NCBI RefSeq assembly: GCF_029909975.1
Contig: NZ_CP094516.1
Span: 4,216,001-4,280,000, forward strand
DNA from: Bradyrhizobium sp. ISRA430
GTDB lineage: Bacteria > Pseudomonadota > Alphaproteobacteria > Rhizobiales > Xanthobacteraceae
Length of the DNA: 64,000 nt
Direction of reading: 5' to 3'
The position numbers were made by a program, and so were the translations under genes. The notes beneath the pieces are model-generated. The model was not told the DNA's origin. It did no database searches and saw only the letters and a program-made list of their open reading frames with translations. The first letter of the stretch is position 1. Each line of letters starts with the position of its first letter. Shown piece after piece: positions 5,841 through 29,638 of this stretch.

Positions 5841-6476
5841 AAACCTAAATCGGCCGCAACACCCCACCCATCGAGTGATCGCATACTCGAAGGACGGCGC
5901 CGGCCGTGAGGAGCTAGCGCTCAAAATTGATCTGGGTCAGGATTTTGTGTTGCCTCTTCGTCAGCGGCGATCTCCAGGGGAATAAGCTAGGGCCGTTCAA
6001 GTGAGGGGCCGCTATGCCCAGGGAAATCGCGATAGCGCTTTGGTCCTTAGCTACTCGCCGGTCTAATTGGGGCTCAGCAAGCATTTTCCTACCAGGCGGA
6101 TGTTAGCGCGAAAGCTGCCATAGTTGTCGATCCGGTTGCCAATCGGGCGGTCAAGGTGACAGGCTGCCTGCTATGCGAGCGCTGCCTAACGCTCAAAATG
6201 GATTACCCGTGCCAAAATTGCGCTTCGACGCGAATTGCAAGCCGCCGATTGACGTCGTGGGGACGTTTCGCCGACGCGAGATTGAACCAGGGCATAGCCC
6301 GAGCAGAGCAGCATTCCCCTCTGTCCGCTATGCTGTGACCTGCCGGCCCGCCGCGGCCGGGTGAATTGGGGGTTTGTTCGTTTCAGCGTTTCACCGGATG
6401 TCCGGCCGCTGACCATGAGATGTCGCGCAACGGGATTTCATTGCGAGGCCCGCAGCCGGGCGGTGTCACAAACCTG
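5841..6476. other. Gap with no supported gene
   Basis: No frame looks convincingly coding. A 60-codon frame at 6156-6338 has two Cys pairs (CLLCERC, CQNC) but no ribosome site and no known relatives. I treat it as unsupported. Confidence 0.4.
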
Positions 6477-6580
6477 TGGCATGGCCATTGCAAAGTTGCA
6501 ACCAACTGGGATTTCAGCGCTCAGTTTGAGAATAAAACGCTGCCGGGACATGTATTTCGAGCCCGGCAGCGTCCTATTTC
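6477..6580 (+). ncRNA. Putative sigma-54-driven small RNA, copy 1
   Basis: TGGCATGGCCATTGCA at 6477-6492 matches the sigma-54 consensus, with GG and GC exactly 12 bases apart. Transcription would start near 6503. About 35 bases later a perfect 11-bp stem, ACGCTGCCGGG at 6538-6548 and its complement at 6562-6572, ends the unit, followed by a short T-rich stretch. A second weak stem (AACTG/CAGTT) precedes it. Closely similar units lie at 24504 and 29534, with a partial one at 45629. No ORF is conserved inside. The RNA itself is inferred. Confidence 0.6.
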
Positions 6581-6951
6581 GAGATTAGTGGGACAGCCGC
6601 CCGCCGATGCGTCGCCTGGCGAGACGAGTTGGCTCGAGCGTCAAACTGATCGAAAATGCTCCTCGTCTATGAAGTCGTCACCACATTGGCGCCTGCGGCT
6701 CGAAGCCGGAAAACCGTCCATAACGACCGTACCTGCCGAAGCTGCACAATGTTCATGTCTCGTTTGACATCCGTTCGTATCGTTGAGCCGGAATTGCATA
6801 GTTATCCCCGCGCCTGTTCATCTACCGTTCCTATCAGAACACGCGACTTCACCGTTAAATCGGGACATCCAGTGATAAGAATTGCATAGTTTTCCCGGTC
6901 GAAAGGCTGCCCCGCCGGCCCTACACGCATCCGCGCCTTCGGATTTTTTTC
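6581..6951. other. Gap; direct repeat GAATTGCATAGTT
   Basis: No supported gene. The 13-mer GAATTGCATAGTT occurs at 6791-6803 and again at 6879-6891, each followed by T/A and TCCC. It could be a binding-site pair or a small insertion footprint. Confidence 0.4.
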
Positions 6952-7065
6952 CTAGCGCATCAGCAGGGCAGCGACGGCGGCCACGAAGCCGACCACCAGA
7001 AGGCTGCCGGTCGTGAGCGCGATGAAGTCGATCGATGGGCTGTGATCAAAGTGGTGAAGGCGCAT
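6952..7065 (-). CDS. Tiny membrane protein MRLH family, 37 aa (copy A)
   Basis: The ATG at 7065 is preceded by a strong AAGGAGG. The product begins MRLHHFDHSPSIDFIALTTG and ends in a single hydrophobic helix (SLLVVGFVAAVAALLMR). A second copy at 29183-29287 shares MRLHxH, the Ile-Asp before the helix, the helix and the final Arg, with many silent and conservative changes. That argues for selection on protein. Both share a long conserved upstream leader. Function unknown; a single-pass inner membrane peptide is likely. Confidence 0.7.
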   Translation of the reverse strand: MRLHHFDHSPSIDFIALTTGSLLVVGFVAAVAALLMR

Positions 7066-7210
7066 TGTCGCCTCCTTGCATATTGCCCCGCATCAGGCCC
7101 CGCCGCCTTGGGGTAGAGAGGGGGTCCGCGGCGACGGGACCCCGCGGCCAGGGGATGAGGCCGCACATAGGCAACGGTCGCGATGGGTGATCCGTTCCGG
7201 CCCGCCGAAC
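7066..7210 (-). promoter_or_regulatory. Conserved structured leader of tiny membrane gene (copy A)
   Basis: About 140 bases upstream of the 7065 start align with the region upstream of the 29287 start, well beyond the ribosome site. Read on the minus strand it can form GGCC-loop-GGCC, GGGGTCC-loop-GGACCCC and CCCC-loop-GGGG hairpins in a row before AAGGAGG. The second stem is partly kept in the other copy through G-U pairs. A structured 5' UTR is inferred. Confidence 0.5.
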
Positions 7211-8572: not shown

Positions 8573-10132
8573 CTAATTGTAGTAGCGCGGCCCGCGGATG
8601 TTGGGATGAAGGATCGGCGCGTCGTCCGCGGAGCGCTTGGGTGAAGGACGCCGATCGAGATTGTTGGCAAGGATCGATTTGACCGAGCCGTAGGTGCGCG
8701 CGCCAATATCGATCGCCCGCATGGCGGCGGCATCGAGCCGCTCGTGCCCGTAGGATCGGGCGAGCCGGATGATGCCGAGACAGGCGCGGAAGCCCTGTTC
8801 CGGATGCGCGCGCTCGTCGAGGATCAGGTCGCACAGCGCCGCGGTGGCCGGCCCGATCGAGGCTGCGTCCTTACGGATGCGCTCGATAGTCCAGCCAGCG
8901 TAGCGCCGATGACTGGAGGCCATGTGCTCCGGCACCGTCGTGTGCTTGTGGTTGCCGCTCATGCGCTGATGCGCGGCGATCCGCTCACCCTTGTGGAAGA
9001 TCTCGACGGTGCGAGCCGTGAAGCGCACCTCCACCTCGGCGCGGACGAAGCGATGTGGAACGCTGTAGTAATGCGCCTCGACCTCGACGTGATAATCGAT
9101 GCTGACCCGGCAGATCCGCCACTCGGCGAACACGTAAGGGTTCTCCGGCAAGGCCTTGAGCGCGGGCCAATCGATCTCCTCCAACAGCTTGCGGCGGGTC
9201 ACGCCGAGCCGCCGGATCGGCCGCTCCTCGTTGAGCCGGGTGAGCAACTCGGCGATCGCCGCATTGACCTCGGCGAGGCTGTGGAAGATGCGGTGGCGCA
9301 GCCGCCCGAGCAGCCAGCGCTCGACCATGAGGACCGCCTGCTCGACCTTCGCCTTGTCTCGTGGTCGTCGCGGCCTGGCTGGCAGAATGGCCGAGCCGTA
9401 ATGCGCCGCCATGTCGGCGTAGCTGCGGTTGATCTGCGGATCGTAGAGGCAGGCCTTGATCACCGCGACTTTGGTGTTGTCCGGCACCAGCAGCGCCGGC
9501 ACGCCGTTGATCGCCTCGAAGGCGCCGACGTGGCCGCTGATCCAATCGGCGAGCCCCTGCGTCCAGGTCGCCTGCGCGTAGGTGAAGCTGGAAGCGCCGA
9601 GCACCGCGACGAAGATCTGCGCGGCGCGCCGCTCGCCGCTGAGCCGGTCGATCACGACCGGCACGCCGTCACCGGCATAATCGACGAACAGCTTGTCGCC
9701 GGCCGCATGCGACTGGCGCATCGTCACCGACAGCCGGCCTTCCCAGGCGCGGTAGAGCTCGCAGAAACGCGAATAGCGATACCCGCCGGGCTCGCTTGCG
9801 ATGTACTCCTCCCACAGGATCGACAGCGTCACGTGCTTGCGCCGGAGCTCGCGGTGCACCGCCGCCCAGTCCGGCTCCGCCTGCCGGCGATGGCCCCGCC
9901 GCGTGCCGGAACCCGCACCGGCGCTGGCGAACAGCCGGGCCTCCAGATCAGTGTCGGTGACGTCATCGGGCAGCGGCCAGGTCAGCCCCGATGCCTCGAA
10001 CCGCCGGATCGTCAGCCGCACCGTCGAAGGCGCCGTCCCCAACCGCCGCGCAATCTCGCGGGTCGGCATCCCAGCCGACTTCAATCTGATCACTTCGCGC
10101 ACATGGCGCATCGCAAGCCTCTCCGTCGGCAT
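8573..10132 (-). CDS. istA: IstA transposase of IS21 family
   Basis: About 519 residues from MPTERLAMRHVREVIRLKSA. An N-terminal helix-turn-helix (GMPTREIARRLGTAPSTVRL) is followed by the RNase H-like DDE core, with DYAGDGVPVV holding the first Asp, VPDNTKVAVIKA the second, and a later PRRPRDKAKVEQ segment the Glu. A beta-barrel-like C-terminus (YHVEVEAHYYSVPHRFV) is typical. The frame is intact and the stop lies 12 bases before istB. Confidence 0.93.
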   Translation of the reverse strand: MPTERLAMRHVREVIRLKSAGMPTREIARRLGTAPSTVRLTIRRFEASGLTWPLPDDVTDTDLEARLFASAGAGSGTRRGHRRQAEPDWAAVHRELRRKHVTLSILWEEYIASEPGGYRYSRFCELYRAWEGRLSVTMRQSHAAGDKLFVDYAGDGVPVVIDRLSGERRAAQIFVAVLGASSFTYAQATWTQGLADWISGHVGAFEAINGVPALLVPDNTKVAVIKACLYDPQINRSYADMAAHYGSAILPARPRRPRDKAKVEQAVLMVERWLLGRLRHRIFHSLAEVNAAIAELLTRLNEERPIRRLGVTRRKLLEEIDWPALKALPENPYVFAEWRICRVSIDYHVEVEAHYYSVPHRFVRAEVEVRFTARTVEIFHKGERIAAHQRMSGNHKHTTVPEHMASSHRRYAGWTIERIRKDAASIGPATAALCDLILDERAHPEQGFRACLGIIRLARSYGHERLDAAAMRAIDIGARTYGSVKSILANNLDRRPSPKRSADDAPILHPNIRGPRYYN

Positions 10133-10366
10133 CCAGGTCCCCCTTCGCAAAGCCGAAAGGCGGGACCGTATCGGAGCCAGAAGAGGCCTCGTCACCCCGG
10201 GCGACATCATCCCGGAATGGTGGGCGAGATCATCTCGGAATGGTGGGCGACATCAAATCGGAACGGTGGGCGAGATCATTCCGGAATGGTGGGCGACATC
10301 GAGCGGAATCAGCAATTAGCATACGTATAGATAGGCGTATGCTGATCGCCAGCATAGGAGGCCACC

Positions 10367-17023: not shown

Positions 17024-17279
17024 TCCTGACGGTCGTCACGGTCCTTTTGGATGTTGAAAAACTGGGAAAGAGAACTTCCCGGCGAAAAAAAATATTCGTG
17101 GGCGATCCTCTGTCAAGACGCCTCTCGCCGCATCTCCGAATCCATCGGAAAGGCGGCGCTGGGGGGACGACGAGCGGTGCTGGGATCGTTGCAAAATTTT
17201 TTGCGACCGCCCTCTTGAACCGGCTTCCCTTTTTTCTAACTCATTTTTCGCCGCGAGAGCGGTGTGCCGGGCGCCTTCG

Positions 17280-17378
17280 CGGGTCCGGCCCGGGCGCCGG
17301 GATCGGTGTCTTCGGACCCTTCTGAAACCCCACTCCTGCGCTCCTTCGTATCCATCTTGCTCTTTGGAGAACTTGGTT
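17280..17378 (+). promoter_or_regulatory. ROSE-like RNA thermometer candidate
   Basis: The roughly 100-base leader of the first small heat-shock gene ends with TTGCTCTTTGGAGA just before the ATG. In known ROSE elements of Bradyrhizobium heat-shock leaders a UUGCU or UCGCU block pairs with the AGGA of the ribosome site at low temperature. Upstream GGGTCCGGCCCGGGCGCC is GC-rich and can fold. A possible promoter (TTGAAC near 17216) lies further upstream. Assignment rests on position and this motif only. Confidence 0.5.
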
Positions 17379-17837
17379 ATGAGGACCACGTTTGACTTCG
17401 CGCCCCTGTGGCGCTCCACCATCGGCTTCGACCACCTGGCCGATCTCGTCGACAGCACGCTGCGCCAGGCGAGCGAAGACCATTATCCCCCGTACAACAT
17501 CGAACGCACCAGCGAGGACCATTACCGGATCTCGCTCGCCGTCGCCGGCTTCGGCGCCGACGACATCGCCGTGACGGCCGAGCAGAACGCGCTCACCATC
17601 GAGGGCAGGAAGCCCGAGAAAGCCGCCGGCGAGTTCCTGTACCAGGGCATCGCCGCGCGTCCGTTCCGGCGCGTGTTCAACCTCGCCGACTACGTCCAGG
17701 TGAAGGAGGCGGCCTTCCGCGACGGACTGTTGATCATCGATCTCGTCCGCGAGGTGCCGGAGGCCATGAAGCCGCGCCGGATCCAGATCGGAGGCGGCGC
17801 CTCGGCCTCGGCACAGATCGAGCAGAAGGCGGCCTGA
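17379..17837 (+). CDS. Small heat shock protein, Hsp20 family (class A type)
   Basis: 152 residues with an alpha-crystallin domain: YNIERTSEDHYRISLAVAGF, then ALTIEGRKPE, and a C-terminal IQI (I-x-I) anchor before GGGASAS. The start follows a TTTGGAGA ribosome site. ATP-independent holdases of this family keep denatured proteins soluble. It is followed 78 bases later by a second Hsp20, forming a two-gene heat-shock operon. Confidence 0.93.
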   Translation: MRTTFDFAPLWRSTIGFDHLADLVDSTLRQASEDHYPPYNIERTSEDHYRISLAVAGFGADDIAVTAEQNALTIEGRKPEKAAGEFLYQGIAARPFRRVFNLADYVQVKEAAFRDGLLIIDLVREVPEAMKPRRIQIGGGASASAQIEQKAA

Positions 17838-24162: not shown

Positions 24163-24503
24163 TGACGCGGGAGCAGCCAGCAGCGGATTCGACGGGCAAA
24201 TACAATATGAGCGGCGGCGCAAATGGGAAAAGCCGCAGCGTGGTTCCAGCCCCCACTGCGGCCATCCCGGACAAATTAGAAATTGGTGCTCAAATCTCGC
24301 CGGTGTTCTTTTAGTAGAACACCCCTTTCCGAAAATGGAGTCCGGACAACTACCGGAGTGCGAGCTTCTACCATTGAACTTAAGAGCGAACGTGGCACGG
24401 CTAGCGCTTCTAGCCCCAATGCTCCCGGCTGCCAATCCCATTGCGGATCAGAGCGCTGGGGGTTGCTGCGCCCGCCAGCGTGAACCGGCGTGTCACAAAC
24501 CCG
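24163..24503. other. Gap with no supported gene
   Basis: Frames on both strands lack coding character. The stretch lies between the ligase N-terminal fragment and the putative small RNA copy 2. Confidence 0.35.
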
Positions 24504-24602
24504 TGGCATGACCCTTGCTAAATCCAACTGGGATTTCAGAGCTCAGTTTGAGAAGAAAACGCTGCCGGGACATGTATTTCGAGCCCGGCAGCGTTCTATT
24601 TC
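24504..24602 (+). ncRNA. Putative sigma-54-driven small RNA, copy 2
   Basis: TGGCATGACCCTTGCT at 24504-24519 fits the sigma-54 consensus with GG and GC 12 bases apart. The transcribed part matches copy 1 closely, although five bases are missing just after the promoter. The stem ACGCTGCCGGG (24559-24569) and its partner (24584-24594) are identical to copy 1, followed by TCTATTTC. It is followed by the MALHF gene at 24738, a pairing repeated at 45629-46031. Confidence 0.6.
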
Positions 24603-24737
24603 GAGACATGTAGAACAGCCAGCGGTGAACCGACGGGCCTTCCTCATCGATGGTTGTGATGTCCGAACGCTACGCAGGTAAATGCGCCCGGCCTGCACCC
24701 GTGGCACTTTCTGACGAGCAAGAGTGTGGAGGGTGAT

Positions 24738-29533: not shown

Positions 29534-29638
29534 TGGCATGCCCCTTGCTAAATCGAAGCCAACTGGGATTTCAGCGCTCAGTTTGAGAATGAAACGCTGC
29601 CGGGACATGTATTTTGAGCCCGGCAGCGTCCTGTTTCG
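29534..29638 (+). ncRNA. Putative sigma-54-driven small RNA, copy 3
   Basis: TGGCATGCCCCTTGCT at 29534-29549 fits the sigma-54 consensus with exact spacing. Predicted start near 29560. The body matches copy 1 almost base for base, with the same 11-bp stem (29594-29604 and 29619-29629) followed by CCTGTTTC. The spacing between promoter and body equals copy 1, which makes copy 2 the deletion variant. Confidence 0.6.

Follow-up and report, generated by a model that had tools for sequence, protein, structure and literature searches.

The window analysed here is a stretch of 64,000 nucleotides (bases 4216001-4280000) from the genome of Bradyrhizobium sp. ISRA430, an assembly of 8.56 Mb in a single contig. 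A first-pass annotation had pointed out three elements in this window with a common motif in exact spacing, a conserved body, and a perfect 11-bp stem followed by T-rich sequence (Table 1). We confirmed exact matches to TGGCAT-N5-TTGC at 6477, 24504 and 29534, with GG-N10-GC in each copy. With one mismatch allowed, the same motif gives 8 matches against 4.9 expected; since the motif alone is near chance, the evidence lies in the element as a whole. The body is indeed conserved, with 87% identity to copy 6477 over 130 bases for copy 24504 and 91% over 125 bases for copy 29534. All three copies have the stem ACGCTGCCGGG / CCCGGCAGCGT without a mismatch. The T-rich tail held up less well: it is weak in the window copies (CCTATTT, TTCTATTT, CCTGTTT) and clearer in some copies outside the window (GCTTTTC, GATTTTTTTT). 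Five further copies elsewhere bring the genome total to 8, and four of these fall inside 94 kb.

Window positions 6054-6599 are repeated, together with the small RNA, at 4315460-4316020 (88% alike), and the first part only of that upstream repeat (6054 to 6325) also occurs at 1267350-1267624 (91% alike). A transposase gene with a Mu C-terminal domain (PF22483) lies near copy 6477, at 8573-10210 on the minus strand, and a ROSE heat-shock RNA thermometer lies at 17267-17385 on the plus strand (Rfam RF00435, 52.1 bits).

Table 1. Coordinates of the window elements and of RNAs A and B. Positions refer to the window unless a genome is named; R1 and R2 are the covariance models described in the text.
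Feature	Position	Strand	Basis or remark
Upstream box GTCACAAACCTG, copy 1	6465-6476	+	Directly before the -24 element; conservation begins here
Sigma-54 -24/-12 promoter TGGCATGGCCATTGC, copy 1	6477-6491	+	Position matches 53/60 relatives from the RNA-only model
Predicted small RNA, copy 1	6503-6580	+	R1, 104 bits; +1 about 6503, predicted from sigma-54 spacing
5′ hairpin AACTGGG / CTCAGTT, loop ATTTCAGCG, predicted pairing domain, copy 1	6504-6526	+	Two-sided changes at 7/7 pairs; 14-nt antisense to own-genome B
Terminator hairpin ACGCTGCCGGG / CCCGGCAGCGT, copy 1	6537-6572	+	T-rich 6573-6580
Upstream box GTCACAAACCCG, copy 2	24492-24503	+	Sequence read and upstream conservation profile
Sigma-54 -24/-12 promoter, copy 2	24504-24518	+	Exact motif; spacer to RNA 5 nt shorter
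Small RNA body, copy 2	24525-24603	+	R1, 102.6 bits
Terminator hairpin, copy 2	24559-24594	+	Perfect stem
Sigma-54 -24/-12 promoter, copy 3	29534-29548	+	Exact motif; upstream box degraded
Predicted small RNA, copy 3	29560-29638	+	R1, 100.2 bits
Terminator hairpin, copy 3	29594-29629	+	Perfect stem
RNA B, ISRA430 genome	1294094-1294169	+	R2 match, L314
Tandem A and B, complementary loops, USDA 110 genome	4867106-4867286	-	L239

Promoter, structure and spread of the family

A covariance-model search of the genus, suggested as a check by the first-pass annotation, was run with a model (R1) built from the RNA part of 22 copies, with the promoter left out. R1 matches 100 of 190 Bradyrhizobium genomes at E ≤ 1e-6, with up to 9 matches in one genome; the 190 genomes are a sample, and the matches are not independent. 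The family copy of B. diazoefficiens USDA 110 lies at 8440113-8440190 on the minus strand. Copies also occur on the Bradyrhizobium plasmids NZ_CP088101, NZ_CP121645, NZ_CP121651 and NZ_CP064706, which are typed as conjugative.

Among 60 divergent relatives (60 of the 81 R1 matches listed between 84.4 and 56.3 bits), TGGC-N9-GC stands 25-27 nt before the RNA in 53, compared with a mean of 0.2 and a largest count of 3 in shuffled upstream DNA. The motif is missing in L131, L132, L138, L146, L154, L158 and L162. Six of the 21 matches outside the divergent set were already among the loci read, one of which (L036) is without the motif. Over all strong copies the motif is present in 87 of 95 and missing in 8. 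Upstream DNA is unlike in most of the 95; when common upstream DNA is dropped, 80 copies remain, 73 of them with the motif, and 72 of these 73 have the T of TGGC 25-27 nt ahead of the RNA. The information profile of the 80 copies runs at 0.02-0.31 bits from -30 to -14 of TGGC and rises at GTCACAAnCCTG, up to 0.99, letters fixed by the search pattern being high by construction. Conservation thus begins just before the -24 box. Further downstream the profile peaks at the two boxes and is low in most of the spacer between -12 and +1, where the RNA follows, as expected of a promoter and then a transcript. Of the 87 motif-bearing copies, 55 have GTCA exactly 12 nt upstream of TGGC. The GG and GC of the elements, with 10 nt between them and about 12 nt before the inferred start, have the layout of a sigma-54 promoter; at BjsR5a of USDA 110, the mapped start lies 13 nt after the C of GC. 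A palindrome like GCCCGCCAGCGTGAACCGGCGGGC was seen within 110 nt upstream, often just before the promoter, in 10 of the 95 copies (for example at window 24474-24489), downstream of 2 copies, and 3 times in about 55 kb of farther flank.

Two-sided base changes were found at 7 of 7 pairs in hairpin 1 and at 6 of 11 pairs in the terminator stem, a total of 13 of 18 that takes in 9 weak matches (32-39 bits), some of them antisense. A structure-free alignment of 93 distinct strong rows, which leaves these 9 matches out, has 95.2% of cells paired versus 92.3% with shuffled columns (largest 93.1), and two-sided changes at 10 of 18 pairs versus 3.6 for shuffled columns and 4-9 for slid partners. Slid partners pair in 30-49% of cells; a shift of +3 columns gives 9 two-sided pairs, but only 39.5% of cells paired. 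Among the 22 closest copies, the loops GATTTCAG and ATTTCGAG show little or no variation; loops have diversified in many paralogs. A common coding frame was rejected by eye, as the ATG in the second loop of the window copies is absent in many relatives and loop lengths differ, in line with the earlier remark that the elements share no ORF. The family has the co-varying structure and the terminator of its own that mark a small non-coding RNA gene, with T runs in many copies and weak ones in the window's three.

The annotation had proposed a small RNA of about 75 nt, present in several copies and transcribed from sigma-54 promoters. At the level of sequence this is strongly supported by promoter position (53/60), co-varying hairpins and the 80 of 95 copies with unlike upstream DNA. 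Each element is most likely a stand-alone sigma-54 small RNA gene of about 78 nt. Not every copy appears intact. In copy 24504 the spacer from the -12 box to the RNA is 5 nt short, which leaves 21 nt from the T of TGGC to the RNA and places the predicted start at about 24530, inside hairpin 1; this copy is possibly defective. The box GTCACAAACCTG that adjoins the -24 box at 6477 is present in a near form at 24504 and degraded at 29534, and the terminator stem of the copy at 4315850 has mismatches. The short spacer, the lost box and these mismatches suggest that some copies seem to be decaying, as expected for a redundant family.

It is very improbable that the elements are a non-transcribed dispersed repeat, of the REP or MITE kind or the end of an insertion sequence, that only resembles a promoter and a terminator. 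The scattering of the copies, with four so close together, would fit such a repeat, and so would the transposase genes found in every stretch around the copies on three of the four plasmids, the tail GACTAGTGGGACAGCC that one group partly conserves behind its hairpin, and a weak similarity of the ends (TGTCACA / TGGGACA). Against it, the paired bases co-vary, and many divergent copies without the tail keep the promoter, the hairpins and the T run. Nor is there a signal of target-site duplication (mean 1.63 nt versus 1.62 nt with swapped flanks) in the 16 copies, out of 95, whose two ends can both be recognised, so that transposition with target duplication, and with it the insertion-element end that the annotation had considered, was rejected for these copies. 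The repeats Br-REP1 and Br-REP2 are likewise dispersed intergenic hairpins in Bradyrhizobium, but no promoter belonging to them is mentioned in the part of their description available to us; the longest word that their published consensus has in common with the three window copies is 8 nt. A comparison of window positions 5900-7200 with 117 genomes gave no empty site, as no listed match beyond the own copy spans both flanks.

Even less credible is a role as 5′ leader or attenuator of a downstream gene. It draws on a small ORF (MTYDTVTVHMLRDVLDD...) whose start closely follows the terminator in USDA 110 and in a few relatives, yet most copies compared have unlike sequence over their first 60 nt downstream, which led us to reject the attenuator of a fixed downstream gene, and the unit has its own terminator. 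This ORF is found at L095 802-1107 on the minus strand, shortly after the USDA 110 family copy, and similar starts follow the copies in L107, L110 and L142.

Comparison with described RNAs

The elements reach no threshold of Rfam 15, a check that the annotation had also suggested, and ROSE is the only Rfam 15 family in the window. In 8 family loci, only two of the matches at E ≤ 10 fall on elements, and both are well short of their cut-offs: snoU13 (20.9 bits against 46) and, on the opposite strand, Atu_L1 (18.9 bits against 60). MmgR of Sinorhizobium meliloti is linked to nitrogen source and PHB. By description, it resembles the present family in its 78 nt (from listed coordinates), its 3 copies, and its RpoD and RpoN motifs (PMC7143759, available in part).

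Closer comparisons come from Bradyrhizobium itself. In the accessible part of the study by Hahn (2016, PMC5082802), BjsR1-10 are reported as validated in B. diazoefficiens USDA 110. BjsR5a/b and BjsR6a/b/c share several traits with our family, as they are short RNAs with several imperfect copies, one of each with a predicted RpoN promoter, and BjsR5a has TGGCAT-N5-GTGC upstream of its mapped start. However, the published coordinates of BjsR5 and BjsR6 hold other sequences, and the USDA 110 family copy is absent from the published table in that accessible part (PMC5082802). The BjsR6 RNAs are present at their published coordinates in the USDA 110 genome. The annotation had raised the question of whether the family is one of the known nodule-expressed small RNAs of Bradyrhizobium, and none of the BjsR RNAs read in USDA 110 is the same: BjsR1-7 (all listed copies), 9 and 10a have other sequence. 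BjsR3 alone overlaps a weak 24.7-bit match, and its sequence differs. A review of rhizobial small RNAs names no such family in the part available to us (PMC7143759). This large RNA family is absent from every list that we searched, none of which reports the family or its loop; the lists belong to the open-licence literature, and the 2012 BjrC paper and supplementary tables, where prior detection is possible, lie outside that scope.

RNAs A and B

A weak R1 match in USDA 110, at 4867209-4867286 on the minus strand, has the same first hairpin, CTGGGGATTTCAGCGCCCAG, and TTGAACC...GACCCAT upstream in place of the sigma-54 motif. This RNA, which we call A, is chromosomal, usually occurs once per genome, and is without the sigma-54 motif. 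About 110 nt further on in USDA 110 lies GGCGCTGAAATCCC, a 14-nt antisense of A, in the loop of a second hairpin that has its own terminator (RNA B). B is a separate conserved RNA, usually located just downstream of A, with the antisense GGCGCUGAAAUCCC in a hairpin loop. In the ISRA430 genome, A no longer adjoins B, and an A-like hairpin lies 6 kb away. Three A/B loci gave no Rfam 15 match. GAAC-N7-GAAC, which resembles the LexA box of alphaproteobacteria, occurs upstream of A in many of the loci L284-L353, before an apparent divergent gene start.

Among 297 genomes of the order, 4 have the exact A-type hairpin, and all 4 are Bradyrhizobium. In a sample of 149 genomes of the bacterial family, matches outside the genus come from two genomes only: G309 has two, both of the A type and without the sigma-54 motif, and the match in G261 has neither the loop nor the promoter. 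A model of RNA B built from 5 sequences (R2) matches 133 of 190 Bradyrhizobium genomes at E ≤ 1e-3; in 88 of these there is a single match above 70 bits. Many of the matches below 70 bits lie near 33 bits and may be chance. A few genomes have a second, weak R2 match about 400 nt away. B is supported in 109 of the 190 genomes (88 by score and 21 more by reading), sometimes without A. Reading of 70 R2 loci identified the B loop in 66 and its absence in 4; A lies upstream in 60 of the 66 and is missing in 6.

These 60 A/B pairs carry matched letters in nearly every case: CAGC/GCTG in 36, CAGG/CCTG in 19 and AAGG/CCTT in 1, as against 3 unmatched pairs (CAGG/GCTG; the A of one of them, L342, is doubtful) and 1 unreadable, with a search pattern for A whose two variable positions are restricted to C/A and C/G, respectively. 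The antisense run from A to its own B averages 11.5 nt versus 4.9 nt with shuffled B. Clade-2 B carries an insertion that interrupts the run and shortens it to 7-10 nt (mean 8.6), compared with a mean of 9.6 for clade-2 A with clade-1 B, so that support in this clade comes from the matched letters alone. The changes are confined to few clades, and independent events may therefore number only two or three. Matched changes on two molecules are nevertheless to be expected if the two pair, and genome comparison alone indicates that A and B pair. As A and B co-vary between molecules, the loop is the predicted pairing domain.

Proposed action of the sigma-54 RNAs

The sigma-54 RNAs of ISRA430 are also antisense to B of the same genome, with runs of 14-15 nt in 5 of 8 copies (including 6477 and 29534) and of 11 nt in the other 3 (including 24504). 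In 500 shuffled controls the run averages 6 nt and reaches 11 nt at most, so the 11-nt runs equal the best shuffle. We infer from this complementarity that the window RNAs mimic A and bind B. As the best explanation of the whole, which we hold with moderate confidence, each element would be a sigma-54 small RNA gene of about 78 nt whose A-like loop binds B loop to loop.

This reading competes with an unlikely but reasoned alternative, in which the loop of the sigma-54-driven RNA acts on mRNAs and the match to B is a leftover of common ancestry with A. A precedent exists in Vibrio, where the Qrr RNAs need sigma-54. In the available part of PMC4211561, these are described as several dispersed siblings per genome with a conserved core that pairs with mRNAs. 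They differ from the present family in belonging to another bacterial class; here, copy number varies widely, some copies lie on plasmids, and the candidate partner is a small RNA. The diversified loops of many paralogs would suit mRNA targets. GGGATTTCAG is kept in 62 of 95 sigma-54 copies and has drifted in 33, in some cases in a genome where B retains CTGAAATC (G118, G133). In clade-1 genomes, the base after TTTCAG in sigma-54 copies is C in 23, T in 14, A in 4 and G in 3, and 7 copies are without TTTCAG. The 16 clade-2 copies have a mean predicted pairing energy of -20.0 kcal/mol with clade-1 B, compared with -16.7 and -17.9 kcal/mol with the clade-2 types of B. Since they pair better with clade-1 B, they do not follow their own B, which also speaks for the mRNA alternative. 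Their preference for clade-1 B is nonetheless smaller than that of clade-1 copies (-3.3 versus -10.1 kcal/mol; P=6e-5, uncorrected for descent). Clade labels rest on the R2 score, and B was read in 20 of the 26 clade-2 genomes. On the other side, antisense runs of 11-15 nt to B are kept in all 8 copies of ISRA430. The 10-mer CGCTGAAATC has 66 possible target sites in USDA 110; among the 65 read, 5 have a start codon and a possible ribosome site close by, none of which is convincing. The same 10-mer has 72 sites in G021 and 55 in ISRA430, of which a minority was read.

For loop-to-loop binding of B, the favoured reading, the sequences suggest the following course. Sigma-54 RNA polymerase would begin transcription at the base of the 5′ hairpin, 12 nt past the GC, and end it at the GC-rich hairpin. 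The 5′ hairpin, the same as in A, would display the loop GGGAUUUCAGCG. Whenever sigma-54 and an enhancer-binding protein are active, the dispersed copies would make A-like RNA that binds B, and this RNA may either add to the action of A on B or draw B away from A.

The annotation had proposed nitrogen or symbiosis control, and in its favour nodC is found in 77 of 100 carriers versus 25 of 90 non-carriers, and nifD in 81 of 100 versus 44 of 90 (both uncorrected for descent; 2 of 125 nifD matches lie below the family cut-off). The 19 carriers without a nifD match indicate that nitrogen fixation is not the whole story. A NifA-type TGT-N10-ACA is not enriched (upstream of 5 of 95 copies versus downstream of 4), and neither are NtrC-like patterns upstream of the 95 copies. 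ISRA430 itself has nifD and nodC, more than 2 Mb away from the window. RpoN-like motifs at nodule-only starts, described in the part of Cuklina (2016, PMC4842269) available to us, fit the family. The proposed control is not established by these data.

Two small RNAs with complementary stretches, like A and B, are known from the sponge or anti-sRNA pairs of enteric bacteria. Unlike those pairs, A and B are tandem neighbours, and the hairpin of A recurs in a third family, which is sigma-54-driven. Tentatively, and with less confidence than in the binding itself, we propose a three-part circuit of a resident A, a tandem antisense-loop partner B, and the dispersed sigma-54 family that copies the loop of A. 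RpoN activity would set the level of free B, and the gene dosage of the dispersed family, to which copies on conjugative plasmids would contribute, would tune this level. A family that carries its own promoter and a loop apparently shaped to grip another small RNA suggests an RNA control circuit that has not been described. The A-B pair offers a case in which matched changes on both small RNAs indicate pairing from genomes alone. If the proposal is true, an agriculturally important genus would contain a large RNA family controlled by sigma-54, the same sigma factor that serves nitrogen fixation genes.
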